From: a virus
IMG/VR virus record: IMGVR_UViG_3300048035_000121
Location: 1 to 26,218 of that record
DNA: 26,218 nt
Reading direction: 5' to 3' (one strand)
Positions 2,046-16,932 of the stretch are shown here, one piece after another; the first letter of the stretch is position 1; the number at the start of each line of letters is the position of its first letter. Made by a program: the position numbers and the translations under genes. The notes under the pieces are model-generated. The model was not told the DNA's origin, made no database searches, and was given only the letters and a program-made list of their open reading frames with translations.

Positions 2046-2316
2046 TGCCGTCAAAGTTAGAATCGTTATAGTGAAAGGATTGGCTAATCGGTTTAGACTC
2101 GAGCACCTTGGTCACCCACAAGTTGTTTGGTGTCTTGTAGGCGACAGACTTGATACCGAAAGCCTCAGCCTTCAGCGTGGTCACAAGCCTCGATGTCTTG
2201 TTCATCTCTATTGCTGTTTTGCAGACAGAGGCGATTTGCGTTTGCCGTACATTGAAGCCTTTCCCTTTCTTATATCGATATTCAATTCGATGCAAGTATA
2301 TTGTGCGCTTTTCCAT
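2026..2316 (-). CDS. hypothetical protein, basic, 96 aa
   Basis: Starts MEKRTIYLHRIEYRYKKGKG at ATG 2316; a start further upstream is possible but would read through the HTH gene in an alternate frame. It is lysine/arginine-rich (ends DGNETKRK) with no recognised domain. It overlaps the upstream HTH gene by 109 bases and the sigma gene by 20. The sigma promoter candidate is embedded in its last codons. Confidence 0.5.
   Translation of the reverse strand: MEKRTIYLHRIEYRYKKGKGFNVRQTQIASVCKTAIEMNKTSRLVTTLKAEAFGIKSVAYKTPNNLWVTKVLESKPISQSFHYNDSNFDGNETKRK
2052..2075 (-). promoter_or_regulatory. candidate promoter for the sigma factor gene
   Basis: On the minus strand this holds TTCACTATAACG (2075-2064) followed by TAACTTTG (2059-2052), six bases before the ATG at 2045. 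TAACTTTG fits the Bacteroidota -7 consensus TAnnTTTG. The upstream half is one of three nearly identical copies of a motif also found at 9065-9076 and 11711-11722. It lies inside the 3' end of the preceding gene, so a nearly leaderless transcript is implied. Confidence 0.45.
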
Positions 2317-4719: not shown

Positions 4720-5079
4720 TTACTTTACGAAAAGTATGCTATCGAACCACGCCTTGTGAGAACGATAGAGTGCGATGTCACTCGGGGTTTGCCCGATTGT
4801 TTGAATCATATGTCGGATGTTGCGGTCGCTGAATCCTTTCTGCGGTAGACCGATAGCCAAGAACATTGACTCAAGCTCTACTGAACTCATACCCGCACCC
4901 GTCATATAATAAACGAATGACTGCTTTAGCGCTGTCTTCTCTCTTGAGCCGTTAGGTTCTGTTAGGTCGTAACCCGCAGATGCGAGTGAGTCGACCAAGA
5001 AAAGTGTTTCGCTCTTTGAGTATGAGCGCTTAGTTGTGAAGATGCTACGGATGTAGCGATAGATAATTCTGTATTTCAT
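4720..5079 (-). CDS. hypothetical protein, possible HTH
   Basis: 119 residues, starting MKYRIIYRYIRSIFTTKRSY. The middle (ALKQSFVYYMTGAGMSSVEL followed by GFSDRNIRHMIQTI) vaguely recalls a DnaA-IV or other HTH layout, but I cannot assign a family. The start codon lies in the first of four copies of a shared start-region repeat. Confidence 0.6.
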   Translation of the reverse strand: MKYRIIYRYIRSIFTTKRSYSKSETLFLVDSLASAGYDLTEPNGSREKTALKQSFVYYMTGAGMSSVELESMFLAIGLPQKGFSDRNIRHMIQTIGQTPSDIALYRSHKAWFDSILFVK

Positions 5080-5240
5080 TTCTCTTTGGTGTTAAAATAT
5101 TCATTCAGCAAATCTGCTAACTCTTCAGGGGTGTCGTTAATTTGTCCAATCTTTTCTCCATCTACAAAAACATCATAACCCCAATCATAACAACACCCAT
5201 CTCCACAAGTGTAGTCCCAATATTCAACAGATATTTTCAT
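5076..5240 (-). CDS. small hypothetical protein, 54 aa
   Basis: Starts MKISVEYWDYTCGDGCCYDW, then GYDVFVDGEKIGQIND, ending LNEYFNTKEK. Cys and Trp are concentrated near the N-terminus (CGDGCC), which could bind metal. The NTKEK end is encoded by the shared start-region repeat and recurs in the 76-residue neighbour. Its TGA overlaps the ATG of the next gene. It is flanked on both sides by the repeat, like its neighbours. Confidence 0.65.
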   Translation of the reverse strand: MKISVEYWDYTCGDGCCYDWGYDVFVDGEKIGQINDTPEELADLLNEYFNTKEK

Positions 5241-5252
5241 TTCTCTTTGGTG

Positions 5253-5453
5253 TTAAAGGTTTTTGATTTCTTTCCTTACTTCCTTCCAATAGATGTAGAA
5301 TCTATCGGATAAATCATCTTCAACCAATTCGCCAAGACTTAACATCTCATCAACCACAACTGCTGCGCATTGTTTTGCATCGTAGTGACCATCACTAAAT
5401 AGATTAGATTGCATCTTGCTTACTAATTCTTCTGCTTTCTCTTTTGGTGTCAT
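5253..5453 (-). CDS. small conserved phage-type protein, 66 aa
   Basis: Starts MTPKEKAEELVSKMQSNLFS with a central KQCAAVVVDEML helix and ends YIYWKEVRKEIKNL. The MTPKEKAEELV...AKQCA..VDE...YWKEVK.EI pattern resembles small proteins commonly seen in Bacteroidota phage and metagenomic contigs. Function unknown. It overlaps the upstream gene by 4 bases at the repeat. Confidence 0.7.
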   Translation of the reverse strand: MTPKEKAEELVSKMQSNLFSDGHYDAKQCAAVVVDEMLSLGELVEDDLSDRFYIYWKEVRKEIKNL

Positions 5454-5680
5454 TTCTCTTTGGTGTTAAAGGTTTGGTCATATAGTTCTTCAGTAGTCAT
5501 CAACCCTCTTTGGTCTGATAAGAACCCACACTTTCTTGTATATTCAGCAAACTCACACATCACCTCTTTCTCTTTCTCAAGCATTGACTCAATCTTTTCC
5601 TCAATCATTCTTGATGTATCTAAATCCATTGGTAGTGTTGCTCTAACCCATTCCAATAACTCTTGCATTGGTGTTTTCAT
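5450..5680 (-). CDS. small conserved phage-type protein, 76 aa
   Basis: Starts MKTPMQELLEWVRATLPMDL, then an EKIESMLEKEKEVM helix, ending ELYDQTFNTKEK. Proteins of this type (MQEL.EW...IE..L..EK) are frequent in Bacteroidota phages next to MTPKEKAEELV-type proteins. No function known. The NTKEK end comes from the shared repeat. Confidence 0.7.
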   Translation of the reverse strand: MKTPMQELLEWVRATLPMDLDTSRMIEEKIESMLEKEKEVMCEFAEYTRKCGFLSDQRGLMTTEELYDQTFNTKEK

Positions 5681-5700
5681 TTCTCTTTGGTGTTAAAGGT

Positions 5701-6504
5701 TTAAATACTGCCTTGTACGGCAAAGGTTGATGTATCTTTAGGTTGTTCGATTAGCCAATCGCTGATGTTACCAACAGCATCGTAGAACTTGCGTTCCCCG
5801 TTAGCCAATGTCTCATCAGTTGCTTTGAAGAGCCCACAAGTATAAGGCTTGTCCTTAGTCTGTACTAACCAATAGAAGTCCTTGATGCCGTAGACCTCGC
5901 AGTATATCCACGCTTGTAGGTCGTAGTTGTAATCACGAACATCCCACTTAAACTGAGACAGACTGCGTGATGAAGTCTTGACATCCGTAATGAATCCATC
6001 GCCTAAGACATCTAAGAAGCCTCGTACGGGCACATCTCCAATCCAAGTGTTGAACTCTTGCTGAGCCGTGCCTTCAATGAACTGAGACAAGTTTGTAACC
6101 TCACCCGTATCGTAGTCTACAACCTCGCTGTTGCGTAGTCGCTTGACCATAACCTTTGCGACATTGTGCTCGACTGCGGTAATCAATTCTTTCTCACCCA
6201 TCTGCTCTGCCTTCCACTCTTTGTAGCGTTTAGTAGCACGAGGGTTCTTACCGCCAATCTCAGCGCAAATCTCATCATCTTGTAGAACAACATAGCGTTC
6301 CCAAGTATCTTCGGGTGTAAGTAACAGACTATCGTAGAATCCACCGAACGTGAATGCCTTGGATGTTTTCTTGAGTTCTCCTTTCATATTGAGTTCCCAA
6401 GCCATCATATCGAAGTCTTTACTGCCCGTGATAGCGTATTTAAGAGAAGAGGCACTTACATACCCCTTCCCCGTTTTGTCTTGTATTGCTTGTGCAAACT
6501 GCAT
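5701..6504 (-). CDS. PD-(D/E)XK exonuclease (RecE/DUF3799-like)
   Basis: This is a 267-residue protein. It starts with a Ser-rich entry (YVSASSLKYAITG), then FTFGGFYDSLLLTPED (about residues 51-66), like the G..hH.lLLeP motif of phage exonucleases. The active site is visible as GFLDVLGDGFITDVKTSS: Asp165 and the DxK pair Asp174/Lys176. LQAWIYCEVYG (about 196-206) is the QxxxY motif of RecB-type nucleases. It probably resects double-stranded DNA ends to give single strands for the ERF protein two genes upstream. The copy appears intact. Confidence 0.85.
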   Translation of the reverse strand: MQFAQAIQDKTGKGYVSASSLKYAITGSKDFDMMAWELNMKGELKKTSKAFTFGGFYDSLLLTPEDTWERYVVLQDDEICAEIGGKNPRATKRYKEWKAEQMGEKELITAVEHNVAKVMVKRLRNSEVVDYDTGEVTNLSQFIEGTAQQEFNTWIGDVPVRGFLDVLGDGFITDVKTSSRSLSQFKWDVRDYNYDLQAWIYCEVYGIKDFYWLVQTKDKPYTCGLFKATDETLANGERKFYDAVGNISDWLIEQPKDTSTFAVQGSI

Positions 6505-8553: not shown

Positions 8554-8974
8554 AAGCTAATCCGAAGTTTTTAAGTTGTTGTAAAGTTTTTTGTAAGTCA
8601 TCCTCAGTTGAGTTGTCCTTGTCTGTGTAGGTTAGTTCTCGGTGACCCCATTGGTGACCGAAGTCTCTAACGGCATTGTAAGGGGCAAAGAAGTATTTGG
8701 TCTCATCCTTATCCCAAATCAGCGCCCAACCCTCACTACAGATTAGTGAGTCATCAAAGAAGTCAATCTCATCGATGAAGATGCATTGCCCGTTGTTCGC
8801 ATTGTAGTATTCAGCGAAGTGTTCGCCATACGCTCGGTACACGGGATTGAATCCCTTGCTGATGAACCACGAGTCTAACTTGTTTCGTGTCACGACATCG
8901 TGCCTTGCGTGTCCGTTTCTTCTTAGTTTTTGACCTTCCCAATACTCGAGGGTGGTCTGCTTGGTTTCAATCAT
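8543..8974 (-). CDS. hypothetical protein, 143 aa
   Basis: Starts MIETKQTTLEYWEGQKLRRN. Rich in Trp, Tyr and His (YGEHFAEYYNANNGQCIFID and DFGHQWGHREL). The His/Asp spread might suggest metal binding, but no family is recognised. It follows a 150-base non-coding gap that carries a T-arm-like hairpin and a CACTATAACG motif, so it is probably first in its transcript segment. Confidence 0.65.
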   Translation of the reverse strand: MIETKQTTLEYWEGQKLRRNGHARHDVVTRNKLDSWFISKGFNPVYRAYGEHFAEYYNANNGQCIFIDEIDFFDDSLICSEGWALIWDKDETKYFFAPYNAVRDFGHQWGHRELTYTDKDNSTEDDLQKTLQQLKNFGLAYEL

Positions 8975-9064
8975 AGTCGTTGAATTTAAGATTGGTGAAT
9001 AAATGTTGTTACCCTCTATCTCGCATTATTATAACCACTTGAGGCGAGGTCGCTGAGGGCGAAT

Positions 9065-9076
9065 CGTTATAGTGAA
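9065..9076 (-). promoter_or_regulatory. CACTATAACG motif, copy B
   Basis: TTCACTATAACG on the minus strand, centred in the inverted repeat AATCGTT/AACGATT (9062-9081). It is about 95 bases upstream of ATG 8974. It matches copies at 2064-2075 and 11711-11722. It is either a phage promoter element or an RNA hairpin with a conserved loop. Confidence 0.4.
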
Positions 9077-9087
9077 CGATTGCTGAG

Positions 9088-9130
9088 TAGCGTGGGGCGG
9101 ACTCGAACCGCCCCCGTACCATACACGCTA
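9088..9130 (-). ncRNA. T-arm-like mini tRNA mimic
   Basis: Read on the minus strand, a closing stem TAGCGTG/CACGCTA encloses a 7-bp hairpin GGGGCGG-TTCGAGT-CCGCCCC. The two stems share one base at their junction. The loop TTCGAGT is the invariant tRNA T-loop with the correct closing pair, followed directly by an acceptor-like strand. At 43 bases it has no D or anticodon arm, so it is not a normal tRNA. The TAG stop of the upstream gene lies in the closing stem. Transcription is inferred from the operon. Confidence 0.55.
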
Positions 9131-10467: not shown

Positions 10468-10718
10468 TAGTCAATTAGTTCAAGTTGCTCTGCCTTGCAG
10501 AATTTACGATTAGGGAAAGGGTTGTATTTAACAGCCTCATCGATTGTCGTACCGCTGTACGGACTCTCGAGTAGTTCCATCTCATACTCTTCACGCTCGA
10601 AGTCGACCTCGTAGAAGAGGTTGTAAGTCTTGTCACGAATGCGACCAATCAATCCCGTTTCCTTGTGGGCTACCAATCTTCCTCGGTAGCCCTCTTCCAA
10701 TAATTTGAAGTTTAGCAT
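10467..10718 (-). CDS. hypothetical protein, 83 aa
   Basis: MLNFKLLEEGYRGRLVAHKE, then GLIGRIRDKTYNLFYEVDFE; an SH3-like small beta barrel is possible, and the end is acidic (CKAEQLELID). Overlaps the DUF7192-like gene by 7 bases. Function unknown. Confidence 0.6.
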   Translation of the reverse strand: MLNFKLLEEGYRGRLVAHKETGLIGRIRDKTYNLFYEVDFEREEYEMELLESPYSGTTIDEAVKYNPFPNRKFCKAEQLELID

Positions 10719-11635
10719 AAGCCAAATAGTTTTACAATGTTTTCATTAGACTCGACAGCATTCTCGATAGTCTTGGTAGCTGTCTTCAACCAATTAGCCG
10801 TATCCCCATCATTACGGAACTGAATCTCATCGGGTGCGGGAAAGTCAACAACCATTTCATCGTTGGCTACCCCGACCCACTCGCAGAAGTCCTCATCCTT
10901 GATGATGTACTTGCTACGCTGAGTCCCCGTACGGCTACCGCCATACCAAGAACTTAGACTCGGGTGGATTAGCTTACCCGCATTCTCGAACCAAGTGAAC
11001 CCGATTCTACGAAAGAACGATGGGTGAGCCGTACTCGCCACTCGTGGTACATCGACCACATCCTCGTACTCTTTGATGGTAACGACTTGACAGCCGTTGC
11101 CCCCGAACACACCCTCGTTGCTGATGTATAGACTAATCTTCACATCGACTTGCTCAGCGAGTTGGTCAACCAAGGCGCAGATTGATGCCCCGTGGCGAGT
11201 GAACTGCGTTGCCTTTACACCCGCTACAGCGTTCGTGCTGTACACGATGTGTACCCGAGGCTTAGCGTGTTCATCAGCATCCTTGTAGAAGTGGTAAGGA
11301 TTACCCGAGCAGTAAGCCCCCACATTTAGGGTCTCACCTACAACCGCCTTGCGTGGTTGCTCGGTCTCGTGATTGAGTAGCGCACCGATGTCAGCCTTAG
11401 CTTTGAGCATCTTCTTTACGCCCATCCCGTTGTAACACGCATCGTACATCTCTTGGTACGACCCGATGTTACCGAAGAACGAACCCGTATCTCTTTCATC
11501 CGATTCTTTGTGGATGACCCCCTCAGCGTTAGACCCCTCAACGAACTCGCTGTAGGTAGTCTGCGTTAGGACTAACTTGCGCTCTCGTGCGTGGCGGAAG
11601 TCAGTCTTGTAATTGTCAATGATTTCAAATCTCAT
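10712..11635 (-). CDS. DUF7192/CobT-like partner of the AAA+ ATPase
   Basis: This is a 307-residue protein. Its central block (LNVGAYCSGNPYHF about 103-116, RVHIVYSTNAVAG about 127-139, TRHGASICALVDQLAEQVDV about 146-165) matches phage DUF7192-type proteins, which look like diverged VWA/CobT subunits: a strand with a metal site, then RG..i.alid.L. The DxSxS metal motif of true VWA domains is replaced by YSTNAV, so the metal site seems lost. It sits directly downstream of a CobS/MoxR-like ATPase, the usual pairing. A role in ATP-driven remodelling is inferred from that pairing only. Confidence 0.6.
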   Translation of the reverse strand: MRFEIIDNYKTDFRHARERKLVLTQTTYSEFVEGSNAEGVIHKESDERDTGSFFGNIGSYQEMYDACYNGMGVKKMLKAKADIGALLNHETEQPRKAVVGETLNVGAYCSGNPYHFYKDADEHAKPRVHIVYSTNAVAGVKATQFTRHGASICALVDQLAEQVDVKISLYISNEGVFGGNGCQVVTIKEYEDVVDVPRVASTAHPSFFRRIGFTWFENAGKLIHPSLSSWYGGSRTGTQRSKYIIKDEDFCEWVGVANDEMVVDFPAPDEIQFRNDGDTANWLKTATKTIENAVESNENIVKLFGLC

Positions 11636-11650
11636 AGCAGATTGTGTTGT

Positions 11651-11753
11651 GCCCGTGGTGGGCGATTAGTAGTAGGATGCGGGGGACTCGAACCCCCACT
11701 CTACCCAAAGCGTTATAGTGAAAGACCACTAACTAAGCGCTTTTGTACATCCT
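11651..11753 (-). ncRNA. T-arm-like structured leader of the DUF7192-like gene
   Basis: Read on the minus strand: AGGATGT (11753-11747), then the end of the ATPase gene including CACTATAACG, then the T-arm hairpin GGGGG-TTCGAGT-CCCCC (11697-11681), then GCATCCT (11680-11674) pairing with AGGATGT. After it comes a GCCC-ACCAC-GGGC hairpin (11663-11651) and, 16 bases later, the ATG. Acceptor and T-arm spacing are tRNA-like, but no acceptable D or anticodon arm can be drawn. The ATPase stop (11713-11715) lies inside the element. Confidence 0.5.
11711..11722 (-). promoter_or_regulatory. CACTATAACG motif, copy C
   Basis: TTCACTATAACG on the minus strand at the end of the ATPase gene, about 80 bases upstream of ATG 11635. 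The same 12 bases occur at 2064-2075 and 9065-9076, each time in the region before a minus-strand gene. Confidence 0.4.
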
Positions 11754-13077
11754 TAGGCAGTCCGTTCAAACAAGTGAACTGAACAGCCTTTTTCAATGTC
11801 CAACCGAGGCTGTCAACCATTTGGTTAGCATCGATACATTGGCGTGGCGTGATGAGGATTTGGTCGTAGCCGTTAGACTTAGCGTTCTCACGGATAGTCT
11901 GCACAGCACGAGTCACCTCATTGTCACCGCAGATAGCAGTCTCTAACTTGCTATCGATGTTCCACTCAATACGAGTGAAGCGAGTGAGGGTCGAACCATC
12001 TTGAGCCTTAGCCGAAGCGTAGGTCTTAGATGCCCCCGTTCCGAATGTGTTTTGACAAGCAATCACTCGGAAGTCCTTGTGGCGAGTCACCATACCATCG
12101 GGGAAGCCGTAGCAGTCACCCGCTAAGATTCCGTTAAGGGCGATGGTAGTCTCGGTGTTCGAGCGGTCGAACTCATCGAGGATGAGTACCTTACCATTCT
12201 CGTAAGCATCACGCAACTTGGTGCTGATGTAGTCACCCGTTGTAGGGCTGATAGCACCAACCAAGTCGAACGACTGCATCTTGCCGTGACAAGACTCAAC
12301 AGCGTAGTCTAAGTCTAACGCTTGAGCCATTTGGATAGCCCCGAAAGACTTACCGCTTCCCGCCTCACCGATGAGTGCGATGTTCTTGCCCATACCGACA
12401 AGAGCAACAGCATCAGCGAAGTTCTTGTGAGCCATCTCGACTCTCTTCGTAGCTGTAGCGCTCACTACCTCAACCTTGGTAGGCTTGATAGCCTTGAGTT
12501 TGCGCTCAACGATAGCCTCTACTTGAGACTCATCAACTGATGCCCCGCTTTGAGACATCATCGCTAACGCAGTCGTTAGCATTTGCATAGGGTCTTGTCC
12601 TTGCATAGTTTGTGTGGTTTGTGCAGACTCAGTCTGCGTTACTGATTCTTCGATGTGCAGTTCAGCCAACTCGCCTAATGACATATACTCGACCATTTGG
12701 TCACGGATATCCTTTAGCTGACCTATCGAGTAGTTCCACATATCGAGGTCAATGTGGTGGTCATCGGGTCTGCTGAACTCAGCGGTACTGAAGTGCTTAG
12801 TTTCCCCGTGCATATGCACCGCCATCGTGTTGTCTGCCTTGCGGTAAGCAAAGATGAACTTGATGAACTCATCGCTACCAATAGTCTCACGAGTCTGCCC
12901 CGCACCAAGTTTATTGGTGGCTTGTTTGGTGCTCATCTTACCCGTTGGGGCTGTATTCAACCCCGCCTTGCGGTAAAGGTCTTGGCTCTTCTCAGCCATA
13001 AACAATACCTCGGTCTTGTCGAACCCGAGGCTCATTTGGGCAACTGCCCATACATCTGCTACAAATCGCATACGCAT
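11713..13077 (-). CDS. CobS/MoxR-type AAA+ ATPase
   Basis: This is a 454-residue protein. The N-terminal 200 residues are a phage-specific part with a Gln/Met-rich linker. The AAA+ domain begins near 215: Walker A GEAGSGKS (237-244), then QSFDLVGAISPTTG (loop typical of MoxR/CobS), Walker B VLILDEFDR (297-305), sensor 1 FRVIACQNTFG, and arginine-rich LTRFTRIEW. It probably acts as a hexameric ATPase that remodels a partner, with the DUF7192-like protein encoded next. Both ends lie in structured leaders: its ATG follows the leader at 13088-13166, and its stop is inside the T-arm-like element. Confidence 0.8.
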   Translation of the reverse strand: MRMRFVADVWAVAQMSLGFDKTEVLFMAEKSQDLYRKAGLNTAPTGKMSTKQATNKLGAGQTRETIGSDEFIKFIFAYRKADNTMAVHMHGETKHFSTAEFSRPDDHHIDLDMWNYSIGQLKDIRDQMVEYMSLGELAELHIEESVTQTESAQTTQTMQGQDPMQMLTTALAMMSQSGASVDESQVEAIVERKLKAIKPTKVEVVSATATKRVEMAHKNFADAVALVGMGKNIALIGEAGSGKSFGAIQMAQALDLDYAVESCHGKMQSFDLVGAISPTTGDYISTKLRDAYENGKVLILDEFDRSNTETTIALNGILAGDCYGFPDGMVTRHKDFRVIACQNTFGTGASKTYASAKAQDGSTLTRFTRIEWNIDSKLETAICGDNEVTRAVQTIRENAKSNGYDQILITPRQCIDANQMVDSLGWTLKKAVQFTCLNGLPKDVQKRLVSGLSL

Positions 13078-13087
13078 TCAATTTTGT

Positions 13088-13166
13088 GACCCGTGGTGGG
13101 TCGGTTCATAATTAGGGGGTAGTGCGGTCTCTTGCACCCGCCCCGACCTAAAGCCGTGGACTACCC
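13088..13166 (-). ncRNA. structured leader E1 (GGGTAGT-closed junction)
   Basis: Minus strand: GGGTAGT/ACTACCC (13166-13160 with 13123-13117) encloses two weak arms (CGGC/GTCG and GCGG/CCGC). CCTAA follows, then the hairpin GACCC-ACCAC-GGGTC (13102-13088), 10 bases before ATG 13077. The closing stem is identical to those of the leaders at 14.2 and 14.7 kb. The TAG stop of the upstream gene is part of the stem. The inner arms are less certain than in the sister elements. Confidence 0.55.
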
Positions 13167-13382
13167 TTGGATGGCGATTTGGTAAATCTTCATCCCTTGA
13201 CCGCCATACAAATCAGTACGGCGCTCATCATCGTAAGCCTTAGCCATCTCTACAGCCTTGTCGTACGATACAGCGAAGCCGATATCACTCGGGTGATACG
13301 GGTCTTCAAGCGATACCACTTGGTACGCCAATGTGAACTTACCGCTTGGTACAGCCCACAATTTCACAAATTCTATTTCCAT
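13161..13382 (-). CDS. hypothetical protein, 73 aa
   Basis: MEIEFVKLWAVPSGKFTLAY, then VSYDKAVEMAKAYDDERRTD. Beta strands then a helix; no family recognised. Its stop codon falls in the closing stem of leader E1. Confidence 0.65.
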   Translation of the reverse strand: MEIEFVKLWAVPSGKFTLAYQVVSLEDPYHPSDIGFAVSYDKAVEMAKAYDDERRTDLYGGQGMKIYQIAIQG

Positions 13383-13405
13383 AGTCTTCGTTTTTGGTTC
13401 AACAA

Positions 13406-13477
13406 TTACTTACGACCCGCTACAATTAGAGCACCCGATGTGCCTAATGCGGTCGCGACAAATACAGCTATTAGCAT
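13406..13477 (-). CDS. 23-aa membrane micropeptide
   Basis: Reads MLIAVFVATALGTSGALIVA then GRK: one membrane span with a basic C-terminus (positive-inside, so C-in). Its ATG overlaps the stop region of the 84-residue gene, suggesting coupled translation. It is similar in size and layout to the micropeptide at 2913-2990, but the sequences are not alike. Confidence 0.45.
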   Translation of the reverse strand: MLIAVFVATALGTSGALIVAGRK

Positions 13478-13725
13478 AACTCTTCTATTGATTTTTGATT
13501 AGTGTATTCGGCAACAACCTTGCAGTACATCTCGATGTAGCCAACCAAAGTTGGGTCTTCATCAACAGACTCAAGTTCTTTCGAGTCTATGTAATGCACG
13601 ATTAGGTTGCCCATATAACGGATTGAGTACGCCTCGTGCACCGATGCCGTACCCATAATTCCGTATACCTCGCTGACCTCACAATCCATCAGCATATTGA
13701 ATAGGGTTGATTTTAGATTCATCAT
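13471..13725 (-). CDS. hypothetical protein, 84 aa
   Basis: MMNLKSTLFNMLMDCEVSEV, Met- and Tyr-rich; mixed strands and a C-terminal helix (YCKVVAEYTNQKSIEELC). No family recognised. Overlaps the upstream gene by 4 bases. Confidence 0.6.
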   Translation of the reverse strand: MMNLKSTLFNMLMDCEVSEVYGIMGTASVHEAYSIRYMGNLIVHYIDSKELESVDEDPTLVGYIEMYCKVVAEYTNQKSIEELC

Positions 13726-13919
13726 TTCTTCAGTCCTTTGATTATTGATTCACGCAATTCTTGGTAGTCCTCATCTTTAGAGTATATCAAGTCTGCGATA
13801 TCCTCGCTTACCTCGTGCATACCGAACAACTTTGCGATGTCGTATGCATCTTGCAACCGCTCACTTTGTAGCCTCGTTGCTATCGTAGATTTCACTCGTT
13901 CTATACTATCGAAACTCAT
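13722..13919 (-). CDS. hypothetical protein, 65 aa
   Basis: Helical: MSFDSIERVKSTIATRLQSE, then RLQDAYDIAKLFGMHEVSED. No family recognised. ATG and the preceding TGA overlap (ATGA). Confidence 0.6.
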   Translation of the reverse strand: MSFDSIERVKSTIATRLQSERLQDAYDIAKLFGMHEVSEDIADLIYSKDEDYQELRESIIKGLKK

Positions 13920-14152
13920 ACAGCGTACGCAAATTGTAGGTTAGACTTTACCTCAACGAATCCCGCAGTCACGGGTTGCTTTGGGGCGTTCATTAGAGCC
14001 TTAGCCTCAGCTAATCTCTGCTTCATCGCAAGGCGCTCAGCACGACCTACGGCTCTCTTGTTGACATTGAACTCAGCGAACTGAGTTGCATCGAATTTGT
14101 CCTTGTTTGAAAGGAACTTAGCACCCGAGGTGCTTCTTGTGACCTTAGCCAT
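13916..14152 (-). CDS. basic hypothetical protein, 78 aa
   Basis: Starts at ATG 14152 (MAKVTRSTSGAKFLSNKDKF). Basic and helical in the middle (NKRAVGRAERLAMKQRLAEA), then a short beta end. A nucleic-acid-binding role would fit the charge but is not shown. A longer reading would run back into structured leader E3, so the ATG after the leader is preferred. Confidence 0.6.
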   Translation of the reverse strand: MAKVTRSTSGAKFLSNKDKFDATQFAEFNVNKRAVGRAERLAMKQRLAEAKALMNAPKQPVTAGFVEVKSNLQFAYAV

Positions 14153-14186
14153 AACACTTGATTTTAGTGGTTCAAAAATGATTAGG

Positions 14187-14239
14187 GGGTAGTCCGACCA
14201 CGATGTCGGCATAGACCTTATCTCAGTCTATCACTACCC
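14187..14239 (-). ncRNA. structured leader E3 (three-way junction)
   Basis: Minus strand: P1 GGGTAGT/ACTACCC (7 bp), P2 ATAGAC/GTCTAT with loop TGAGATAAG, P3 CCGAC/GTCGG with loop ATCGTG, then CCTAATC. P1 is identical to E1 and E2, and both inner arms match E2 with paired changes and nearly identical loops. It lies about 35 bases before ATG 14152 and lacks the GACCC hairpin of its sisters. Confidence 0.7.
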
Positions 14240-14280
14240 TTGGGTTTAACGCCCGACCTCGCAATGGGTCAAGCGGATTT

Positions 14281-14700
14281 TTATGAGTTCATCTCAGTCT
14301 CAGTCAATTCGCCACGGAATACCGCACGAACCTTTCTCAGTTCCTCGAGTAGGTAGTTCAGCAGTAGGATTTCATCCGTTACGCTCACATCGAAGTCCTC
14401 GTTGAATTTCTTCATCAGTTGATTTCTGCGGATTGTACAATCCACCACCATCGACATAGACTCAGCATCGTTGATGTTATCGAGGGTTACCACGCTTTCT
14501 TTGATAGCGTTAGCGACCTTGATACCCAACTTGATTTTCTGCTGTAGAACGCTACGAACACCGATGTTTTCGTAGTCCAACTCATTGAACTCTACGCCAA
14601 GTTCAGCACTCATTAGTGTGCGCTTTAGGTCTTTGTTGTTTAGTGCTCTTAGTTCAGTTGCACCGCCCATCTCGATTGAAAAAGTTGTTGATTTTACCAT
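14281..14700 (-). CDS. hypothetical helical protein, 139 aa
   Basis: Start at ATG 14700 (MVKSTTFSIEMGGATELRAL), right after the 42-base repeated leader; a longer reading would translate that leader. Mostly helical with a coiled-coil-like end (EILLLNYLLEELRKVRAVFR). No family recognised. Confidence 0.65.
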   Translation of the reverse strand: MVKSTTFSIEMGGATELRALNNKDLKRTLMSAELGVEFNELDYENIGVRSVLQQKIKLGIKVANAIKESVVTLDNINDAESMSMVVDCTIRRNQLMKKFNEDFDVSVTDEILLLNYLLEELRKVRAVFRGELTETEMNS

Positions 14701-14715
14701 TTGATTTGAATTTGT

Positions 14716-14793
14716 GACCCGTGGTCGGGTCGGGTTAGGGGGTAGTCCGAGCACGACCTCAGCGCTGACCTTATTTCAGTCAGTCCACTACCC
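14716..14793 (-). ncRNA. structured leader E2 (three-way junction plus hairpin)
   Basis: Minus strand: P1 GGGTAGT/ACTACCC, P2 CTGAC/GTCAG with loop TGAAATAAG, P3 CTGAG/CTCGG (one U-G pair) with loop GTCGTG, then CCTAACCCG and the hairpin GACCCG-ACCA-CGGGTC (14731-14716). ATG 14700 follows in a TTGAATTTG-rich stretch. Compared with E3, both inner stems change sequence on both sides and keep pairing, while the loops stay nearly fixed. Confidence 0.75.
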
Positions 14794-14802
14794 TTGGTTG
14801 GT

Positions 14803-14991
14803 TTAGGCTTCTTGCTCTGCGTAGAACATTCTTGCCTCAATCTCACGAAGATTTGAGAGTCTCGCAAGTTTCTCTTGCAAGTCGTAACCACTTGCCTTGT
14901 AGCAAGTATCAGCAATGTTTTGCTCTTCTCTACGAAGAATTTTGCGTACAAGTTTAGACTGCTCGATAGTTAGTGTTACGTTTGTTTTCAT
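14803..14991 (-). CDS. hypothetical helical protein, 62 aa
   Basis: Start at ATG 14991 (MKTNVTLTIEQSKLVRKILR). Helical throughout (SNLREIEARMFYAEQEA). No family recognised. Leader and start region are identical over 42 bases to those of the 139-residue gene downstream, but the proteins are not alike beyond a short N-terminal strand (TTFSIE against NVTLTIE). It appears to be the first gene of the leftward arm. Confidence 0.65.
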   Translation of the reverse strand: MKTNVTLTIEQSKLVRKILRREEQNIADTCYKASGYDLQEKLARLSNLREIEARMFYAEQEA

Positions 14992-15006: not shown

Positions 15007-15116
15007 GACCCGTGGTCGGGTCGGGTTAGGTGGGGTGCGCAGTTTCGCTCTGCGATACGAGTCGTGCCGTTCAACATACTCTACGTAACGATGAACAGCG
15101 TTCTCACTCACCCCAC
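15007..15116 (-). ncRNA. structured leader E4
   Basis: Minus strand: GTGGGGT/ACCCCAC (15116-15110 with 15036-15030) closes a junction containing GTTCA/TGAAC (long loop) and CGCAG/CTGCG with a 7-base loop. CCTAACCCG and the GACCCG hairpin follow, as in E2. The closing stem differs in sequence from E1-E3 but occupies the same place, so shape rather than sequence seems kept. Confidence 0.6.
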
Positions 15117-15155
15117 GGGAATGGGTCAAGAGCCTACGCTTAGATATCGTGGGTA

Positions 15156-15470
15156 GTGGTGTACATTTTGGGGCGCAACCTTGGTGCGCAGTACCTACCG
15201 ATTGTCTCGTTCTTGGCTCAAGCACTCTACACAGCATTGGTCTTTGCGATACACCATCCCTTACTTTTTCCACCTACTTGCTATTACTATCGTTCAGCGG
15301 TGTGCCGTGCCTCATACCTCGTTGAGTATGTTTGGTCTAGCCTACCGCTGAAGCCTTTCGTAGTGTTCGAGTATGACCAAGGTCAAACTAAGTACGGCTT
15401 CGGGGTTGGTGCATCCAACAGCATTCGAGGGGTGAACCTCTCATCCACAAGTTTAAGTCCGTGGGGCTGA
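15156..15470 (+). CDS. doubtful open frame, 104 aa
   Basis: Opens at GTG 15156 with no recognisable start region or promoter. The first part is hydrophobic (LPIVSFLAQALYTALVFAIH), and the later part reads like a beta domain (KPFVVFEYDQGQTKYGFGVG). It contains the TTCAGCGG/CCGCTGAA inverted repeat and other hairpins, and no homologue is recognised. It may be a chance frame in the structured region or a degraded gene. Confidence 0.2.
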   Translation: MVYILGRNLGAQYLPIVSFLAQALYTALVFAIHHPLLFPPTCYYYRSAVCRASYLVEYVWSSLPLKPFVVFEYDQGQTKYGFGVGASNSIRGVNLSSTSLSPWG

Positions 15471-15929
15471 CTGAGTAGCTGTTGCTATGCAGAGTGGTCG
15501 GTTGTTAGCATTCATTTCCCTCGGGCGTTTCCGTTGGGTTGCTTGTGCCTCACTCGATGCGGTTCGTTTTGTTGTGCATCGGCAGTCGGTGACTCGTGGT
15601 GAGGTGGGGACTTTGATTTCTTATGTGAGGCTCTCGCCCTCTCATCAAACATCCCCCGTTTGACATTGGCTAATTAACGGCGGATAATTGGTTCTCACAA
15701 CCCACCCTCAATTTTGCGTTAATATGACCCGCGCGAGGAAACACCCTCTAGCCCAAGCCTAGAGCGGGATACAGAGTTTTTTTGGGGTGAAATGCAATTT
15801 GAGTATTTCTACCTAAATCAAAATCGGAATTAGGTATTTTTACCTATGCACTTTTCCCCATATCTCACCGAAAAATGAGTATAAAACAGAGTAGAAAACT
15901 TTTGGTCACCTCGAAATAATTACTTGTAA

Positions 15930-16002: not shown

Positions 16003-16572
16003 GTAGAGCCAATTCGTGAACCCCCGTAAACATTGGGGTGCAGAGCAAATATTCCTAAAACGATAAGTTACCCCGTGGAACCTCACCGAAATCGCCCGAT
16101 ATCGCCCCGACCCACCACGCTACAACCCCCGCCAATGCTGAGGCGCTGAAATTGAGAAATGCCCATAAATTGTCGTGGATTGCCCACATATTAACCTATA
16201 TAGATACGCCATAGATATCCACAGGCGAAGCCTCAAGGGGTGCAGACTGAACCACCCAAGGCGAGTCTATCGGGGTGGAATGAGTCACCCATCCGAGGGG
16301 GTAAGAGGGTAAGAGTAGTATTTGGGGGGTGTGATAGTCCCCGTGCTTAGTCCATCTCACCAATCAACTGAGCTAAGCAGACTGAGACCCGTGGCGCAGA
16401 CTAGACCCAAAAAGCTAAAAGTATTTTGACAAATCCCGTGGATACTGAGGGAGGGGGTGTTGGGATTCGTTTCGGAATTGGTTTTGTTTCGTTGTCATTA
16501 TCATATAATCCCCACCCTACTTACTTCTCGCAAAAACCATCAGACGTGCTGACACCTTTTTTCCATTTTTCA

Positions 16573-16846: not shown

Positions 16847-16932
16847 CTCTCGCTGTGATATTGAGGCAAAGTTACAACATATTTTTGACATTATTAAGGA
16901 TTCTGTTATCTTTTTTGGGTTTTAGGGGTATA

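Follow-up and report, generated by a model that had tools for sequence, protein, structure and literature searches.

What are the structured sequences that recur just before several minus-strand genes of this phage genome, and what would they do there? The window, i.e. the whole stretch of DNA analysed here, is the IMG/VR record IMGVR_UViG_3300048035_000121 (26 218 bases). It encodes a terminase (phrog_6681), a portal protein (phrog_6547) and an AAA+ ATPase (phrog_249). The terminase matches those of phages that infect Flavobacterium, Cellulophaga and further Bacteroidota, its best identities (40–45%) being to an uncultured podovirus and Flavobacterium phages, and these matches make Flavobacteria the likely hosts of the phage lineage. 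Close relatives of the ATPase are encoded by five IMG/VR contigs (L123, L124/L194, L125, L126/L197 and L127), and a further relative, L226, was reached via the D-hairpin pattern described below and confirmed by our type A model (E = 5e-17). The comparisons that follow use seven closely related phage contigs: the window, L123, L125, L127, L194, L197 and L226.

The sequence GGGTAGT…ACTACCC is found exactly at 13117–13166 (E1), 14187–14239 (E3) and 14740–14793 (E2), all on the minus strand, with none expected from 100 dinucleotide shuffles. As the earlier note stated, E2 and E3 share an identical 7 bp closing stem and all three elements stand just before minus-strand genes. They lie 40–50 nt upstream of the ATGs at 13077, 14152 and 14700 for E1, E3 and E2, respectively. 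The gene behind E1 is that of the ATPase (11713..13077, minus strand), the gene behind E3 encodes 78 amino acids starting MAKVTRSTSGAK (MAKVTRST; 13916..14152, minus strand), and the gene behind E2 encodes 139 amino acids with no PHROG match (14281..14700, minus strand). Written stem by stem, E2 reads GGGTAGT-GGA-CTGAC-TGAAATAAG-GTCAG-CG-CTGAG-GTCGTG-CTCGG-ACTACCC and E3 reads GGGTAGT-GA-TAGAC-TGAGATAAG-GTCTA-TG-CCGAC-ATCGTG-GTCGG-ACTACCC. The closing stem P1 thus encloses two hairpins, with loops UGAAAUAAG (P2) and GUCGUG (P3) in E2, and UGAGAUAAG and AUCGUG in E3, and is followed by C-CUA in both; we call this arrangement type A (model scores of 77.9 and 76.8 bits, respectively). Single-sequence folding returns the same three-way junction, with z-scores of −1.4 for E2 and −3.1 for E3 (−0.2 for the folding energy of E1). 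These values are modest and the energy alone is no proof of the fold, which comes instead from comparison.

The alignment of type A (A5) comprises ten distinct sequences from six related phage contigs, with 17 pairs and therefore 170 base-pair cells, 99.4% of which are paired. Both sides have changed at 12 of the 17 pairs, and the covariation score of 0.590 was reached by none of 500 shuffles (0.242 ± 0.031). When the structure is slid along the alignment as a control, only 28–41% of the cells remain paired. In the closing stem all seven pairs have changed on both sides; L127, for instance, has TCTCTAT/GTAGAGA and AGTCTGC/GCAGACT. Both loops are nearly fixed, loop 1 as UGMRAYAAG (with the single exception UGAGAUAUG) and loop 2 as RUCRUG, and an element at 11062 in L226 is a hybrid whose frame is that of type A and whose loop 1 is E1-like. 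The proposal that E2 and E3 are a selected RNA, with stems that differ yet still pair around loops that scarcely vary, was made from two copies; it now extends to ten, and the covarying homologues in related phages that were named as its check are indeed present. On this comparative evidence, type A is a real, selected class of three-way-junction RNA that is absent from Rfam.

No Rfam family matches the window at its gathering score, and at E ≤ 5 there are only two chance snoRNA matches, both in coding sequence, in line with the earlier remark that no known riboswitch or leader could be recognized. Among the loci searched, matches to the type A model (R1) are confined to this lineage. In the wider sequence space of IMG/VR, the closing-stem pattern alone was discarded as useless without the loops, its matches (at least 119 stretches) being nearly all due to chance. 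A stricter loop pattern returned the same five contigs only, plus two chance matches in bacterial genomes, and a looser one returned 30 stretches, with no clear model match outside the known phages (the best reaching 19 bits, E = 0.016). A riboswitch identity is not supported either, as different folds stand before the same gene and the same fold before unrelated genes.

E1 (13117..13166, minus strand) shares the sequence of its closing stem with E2 and E3, and to this extent its inclusion in one family by the earlier note stands. Its inner arms are different, however, with P2 being CGGCUUUAGGUCG and the P3 loop UGCAAGAG (UUCAAGGG in relatives), again followed by C-CUA, and the type A model misses it at E ≤ 1. 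E1, with orthologues in L123 and L124, is by these sequence criteria a class of its own, which had been overlooked, and no weak copy of E2 and E3. The first gene carries yet another three-way-junction class, E4 (15030..15116, minus strand), with an 8 bp P1, loops GUUACGYAGAGUAU (P2) and AGCGARA (P3) and a CUAA end, which has orthologues in six relatives.

A further class, type B, occupies the same leader slots and was likewise missed. It consists of an acceptor-like stem and a canonical T-arm (loop UUCGANY), most copies having UAUGGUA between the two. The copy at 11674..11753 (minus strand) has the acceptor AGGATGT/GCATCCT, a 49 nt insert and the T-arm GGGGG-UUCGAGU-CCCCC, followed by A-CUA. 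On its 5′ side this copy runs into the end of the ATPase gene, and it precedes a 307-residue gene (phrog_1909, function unassigned; 10712..11635, minus strand). A comparison with 50 697 phage records gave no real match to this gene or to the DNA of the leaders. The minimal form, without an anticodon arm, lies at 9089..9129 (minus strand) and is composed of AGCGTG/CACGCT, UAUGGUA and the T-arm GGGCGG-UUCGAGU-CCGCCC, followed by A-CUC. In the slot before gene 8974, type B ranges from a version with a 36 nt insert down to an acceptor, a D-loop-like segment and a T-arm only. ARAGORN finds no tRNA in the window and no tmRNA. The tRNA-Tyr that it calls in L125 (9038–9130) was rejected because it has the wrong acceptor, the sequence folding with GTGGTAG/CTACCAC instead. 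Type B-like elements are also seen at 11692–11732 in L123, at about 13270–13330 in L125 and at about 10040–10130 in L127, two of which end in N-CUA; the genes that they precede are well away from the early leader block, and the set thus reaches further into these genomes.

What do these four unrelated folds have in common? We tabulated 30 elements of the four classes (A, B, E1 and E4), to which L226 adds four, giving 34 across the seven contigs, all built on one frame. In all 30 tabulated elements, a closing stem of 6–8 bp abuts a 3′ hairpin of 4–6 bp without a gap, and the two together span 12 positions, of which 11–12 are paired (the stack contains a mismatch in E1 and in two others); the 12-position register was chosen by us where the helix extends to 13, namely in E4 (8 + 5), the window element at 9129 and L125 9070. 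Twelve positions is the length of the acceptor plus the T stem of a tRNA. The stem is followed by one unpaired base and then by a C in 34 of 34 elements. The tail is C-U-A in 24 of the 30 tabulated elements and N-CUA in all four of L226, hence NCUA in 28 of 34 (L125 9070 being counted in a 7 bp register, which gives C-CUC). The tails seen are CUA, CUC, CAA and CAC, and never CCA, and the likeness to the 3′ RCC(A) read by RNase P is therefore partial, with N-C invariant and then U in most cases. Features of a tRNA elbow are unevenly distributed: type B has UUCGANY and mostly UAUGGUA, E1 has UNCAA loops, and the fixed loops of types A and E4 are different ones, with no canonical UUCRA T-loop on the stacked arm. 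Neither the coaxial stack nor the tail, nor the ACCAC hairpin that usually follows, had been noticed earlier.

Moreover, the classes replace one another. The downstream genes are orthologous according to BLAST, and nevertheless the class of element before them changes. The ATPase leader carries E1 in the window, L123 and L124/L194, type B in L125, and type A in L126/L197 and L127. The leader of the 307-residue gene carries type B in the window and L125, and type A in L123, L194 and L127. The MAKVTRST leader, that of E3, carries type A in five phages, type B in L226 and E4 in L194, a phage that lacks the upstream gene. The flank past the discriminator base stays similar across such exchanges, ACTACTAATCGCCCACCACGGGCACAA being found behind type B in the window and behind type A in L194. 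From these exchanges between similar flanks, the four classes appear to be treated as equivalent by selection, and the feature that is read is probably what they have in common, namely the 12-position stack and the N-C-U-A end. That type A and a plain tRNA-like element can take each other's place is an unusually direct clue to function.

The main leaders of the gene block each carry one of the four closed elements, between genes and in the sense orientation, which supports the earlier reading of them as repeated cis-regulatory or RNA-processing elements in a phage operon. The elements come directly after stop codons and, after a short AU-rich linker, a second hairpin (D) with an ACCAC loop follows, then an A-rich stretch (CACAAA or similar) and the ATG in most leaders. 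D hairpins of the window, all on the minus strand, are GACCC-GACCAC-GGGTC at 15007..15022 (before the ATG at 14991) and at 14716..14731 (before that at 14700), GACCC-ACCAC-GGGTC at 13088..13102 (before that at 13077) and GCCC-ACCAC-GGGC at 11651..11663 (before that at 11635). Their stem covaries as well (GACCC/GGGTC, GAGCC/GGCTC, GAGTC/GACTC, GCCC/GGGC and GAGC/GCTC). A pairing between loop 2 of type A and the ACCAC loop was considered and rejected by inspection, being lost when loop 2 becomes GUCAUG. Upstream of the block, TAACTTTG (16867..16874, minus strand) is by consensus match a candidate start of a polycistronic transcript; from 18900 to 9500 the minus strand has no other match to the Bacteroidota −7-like TANNTTTG, and none falls among the leaders of 13.0–15.0 kb. 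From this promoter motif alone we infer a single transcript, and the lone motif upstream, with none among the leaders, would fit one long message that needs to be divided.

The swapping of different folds at the same positions suggests that they are cutting marks for host enzymes that trim tRNAs. We propose that the elements are tRNA mimics marking the gene boundaries of a polycistronic mRNA, where host RNase P and/or RNase Z would cut; we judge the chances of this reading to be evenly balanced. The conservation, the geometry and the exchange of the elements are features of the genomes themselves, and it is from them that we infer cutting. RNase P would measure the 12 bp stack and cut on the 5′ side of the closing stem, and RNase Z, in addition or instead, would cut after the discriminator base. 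Separate mRNAs would thereby be released with the ACCAC hairpin at their new 5′ end, where it might protect the message or keep the start site open. RNases E, G or Y could equally cut in the AU-rich linker past the CUA. Type B keeps the features used by the enzymes of tRNA ends (acceptor, T-loop UUCGANY and D-loop-like UAUGGUA), whereas type A and E4, which stack to the necessary length, have no canonical T-loop. Contact of the two fixed loops may rebuild the elbow in type A, with UGMRA of loop 1, which fits the T-loop pentamer pattern, as the T-loop motif.

Several known properties of these enzymes are compatible with such a role. RNase P acts as a ruler of the T/acceptor stack and may cut any RNA that presents it (PMC4919913), and acceptor/T minihelices are substrates (PMC11221534), as are the phage C4 and M3 RNAs and polycistronic mRNAs (PMC11143913). 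RNase Z, too, recognizes the elbow, on pre-tRNAs that carry no CCA (PMC4810234). With CUA instead of CCA, pairing with the L15 loop of RNase P would be weaker (C-G plus U-G). No phage-encoded RNase P RNA was found in three relatives. The wider claim is more tentative and falls somewhat short of an even chance: several unrelated phage folds, including a three-way junction in which the T-loop and D-loop roles are exchanged, would have converged on the acceptor/T-arm ruler of tRNA and would serve interchangeably as early-mRNA cutting marks for the host tRNA-maturation enzymes. If so, they would be the counterpart in bacterial viruses of mitochondrial tRNA punctuation. If the processing reading holds, host RNase P/RNase Z would serve phages as an all-purpose cutter of mRNA, the four folds would reveal the real requirements of the tRNA 'ruler' enzymes, the minimal determinants of both enzymes could be tested on natural substrates, and the elements would provide compact mRNA-splitting parts for Bacteroidota.

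Mimicry of tRNA and the cutting of phage RNAs by RNase P are already known. By contrast, neither the type A fold nor a repeated set of unrelated, interchangeable folds in phage operon leaders was found in Rfam, in the 50 697 phage records (compared by leader DNA and the 307-residue gene) or in the literature searched, and both would be new on that basis. In animal mitochondria, tRNA-shaped units likewise lie between polycistronic genes and can be excised by the tRNA 5′ and 3′ enzymes; here most units cannot be working tRNAs, several unrelated folds are involved, the message is that of a phage and cutting is only presumed. The non-tRNA substrates of bacterial RNase P (P1/P7 C4 RNA, phage M3 RNA, tmRNA, 4.5S RNA and operon mRNAs) also present an acceptor/T-like stacked helix within a longer RNA (PMC11143913), but they are single cases, whereas here the elements recur through the main leaders and are interchangeable, type A and E4 have no canonical T-loop and the tail is NCUA rather than NCCA. 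Viral tRNA-like structures (TYMV and others) mimic the elbow and acceptor through other topologies (PMC4810234), but at the 3′ ends of RNA genomes, with a CCA and with charging, whereas the present elements are internal and have no CCA. The tRNA-like domain of tmRNA resembles type B in combining an acceptor, a D-loop without a D stem and a T-arm, although here no tag reading frame, CCA or ARAGORN tmRNA is seen. Finally, the early mRNA of phage T7 is divided at RNase III sites, which are long hairpins between early genes. These too are structured intergenic sites separating early phage genes, whereas here we find 12-position stacks with traits of tRNA.

Could compactness alone account for the elements? 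They might stop exonucleases where the upstream message ends or where the downstream one begins, or be sites for other nucleases, with RNase E, G or Y cutting the AU-rich linker that leads to the D hairpin, and the likeness to tRNA would then be a mere consequence of compact folding. The position just past stop codons, with a short AU-rich linker before the second hairpin, is what such a barrier would show, and the fixed loops of type A are typical of a compact tertiary fold. Yet neither the invariant C and the NCUA tail, nor a 12-position stack in four unrelated folds, nor the presence of true T-loop elements in the same slots is explained in this way, and we regard this reading as unlikely.

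Control of translation seems less likely again. The element, the ACCAC hairpin and the A-rich stretch could recruit or gate ribosomes, the element insulating translation units while genes without one would be coupled in translation through their overlap. Most element-less genes of the early block do start −14 to +10 nt from the preceding stop, compared with element-bearing leaders of about 70–200 nt, and the D hairpin, with its conserved CACAAA, lies close upstream of the ATG. For this purpose D alone would suffice, however, and a proper D hairpin is missing after E3 and its L123 orthologue; nor is there any known translational need for a 12 bp stack ending in NCUA. It is improbable that the loops UGMRAYAAG and RUCRUG are binding sites for a phage regulator or a small ligand, in the manner of a riboswitch. 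Near-invariant loops on variable stems would suit such a site, but the downstream genes differ, no Rfam aptamer matches, type A gives way to folds with different loops in orthologous leaders and its frame carries another loop 1 at L226 11062, so no single loop is required by the gene. A purely DNA-level role, as recombination boundaries or protein sites, is very improbable: repeated leader sequences could promote mosaic exchange between phages, but every element is in the sense orientation to its downstream gene (26 D hairpins, with no antisense copy) and the stems covary, G-U pairs included, around fixed loops.

Other repeated or structured leaders accompany the tRNA-mimic candidates. The first early gene is preceded by a long noncoding leader (15020–15780, minus strand) with the patches CACATAAGAA, GCACCAAGGTNGCGCCCCAAAA, ACCCATTCCCGTGGGG and GTTACGYAGAGTAT, conserved in all or most of L123, L125, L127, L194, L197 and L226; it is probably a large structured RNA that is absent from Rfam. 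The fragment CTTAGCTCAGTTGATTGGTGAGA (16330–16390, minus strand), inside long leader sequence, resembles the 5′ half of a tRNA (D arm) and is closed by TGCTTAG/CTAAGCA, with no T-arm after it. A hairpin with the fixed loop UUCACUAU and changing stems occurs at 9062–9081 and 2060–2082 (minus strand) in the window and in relatives (L123 at 6369; L125 at 4535, 5995 and 9142; L127 at 4519, 6443 and 10330); it often adjoins tRNA-like elements or sits within them, and its letters are also present at the end of the ATPase gene (about 11713–11728). Between this hairpin and the next gene lies a structure closed by CCCTC…GAGGG (8970–9060, minus strand), with conserved GCGACC and GTGGTTATAATAAT-like stretches, which occupies the same slot in L123 and L125. 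A second, different repeated leader is found at 5073–5702 (minus strand), where the 29 nt AACCTTTAACACCAAAGAGAAATGAAAA is present in four copies over the starts of consecutive small genes.
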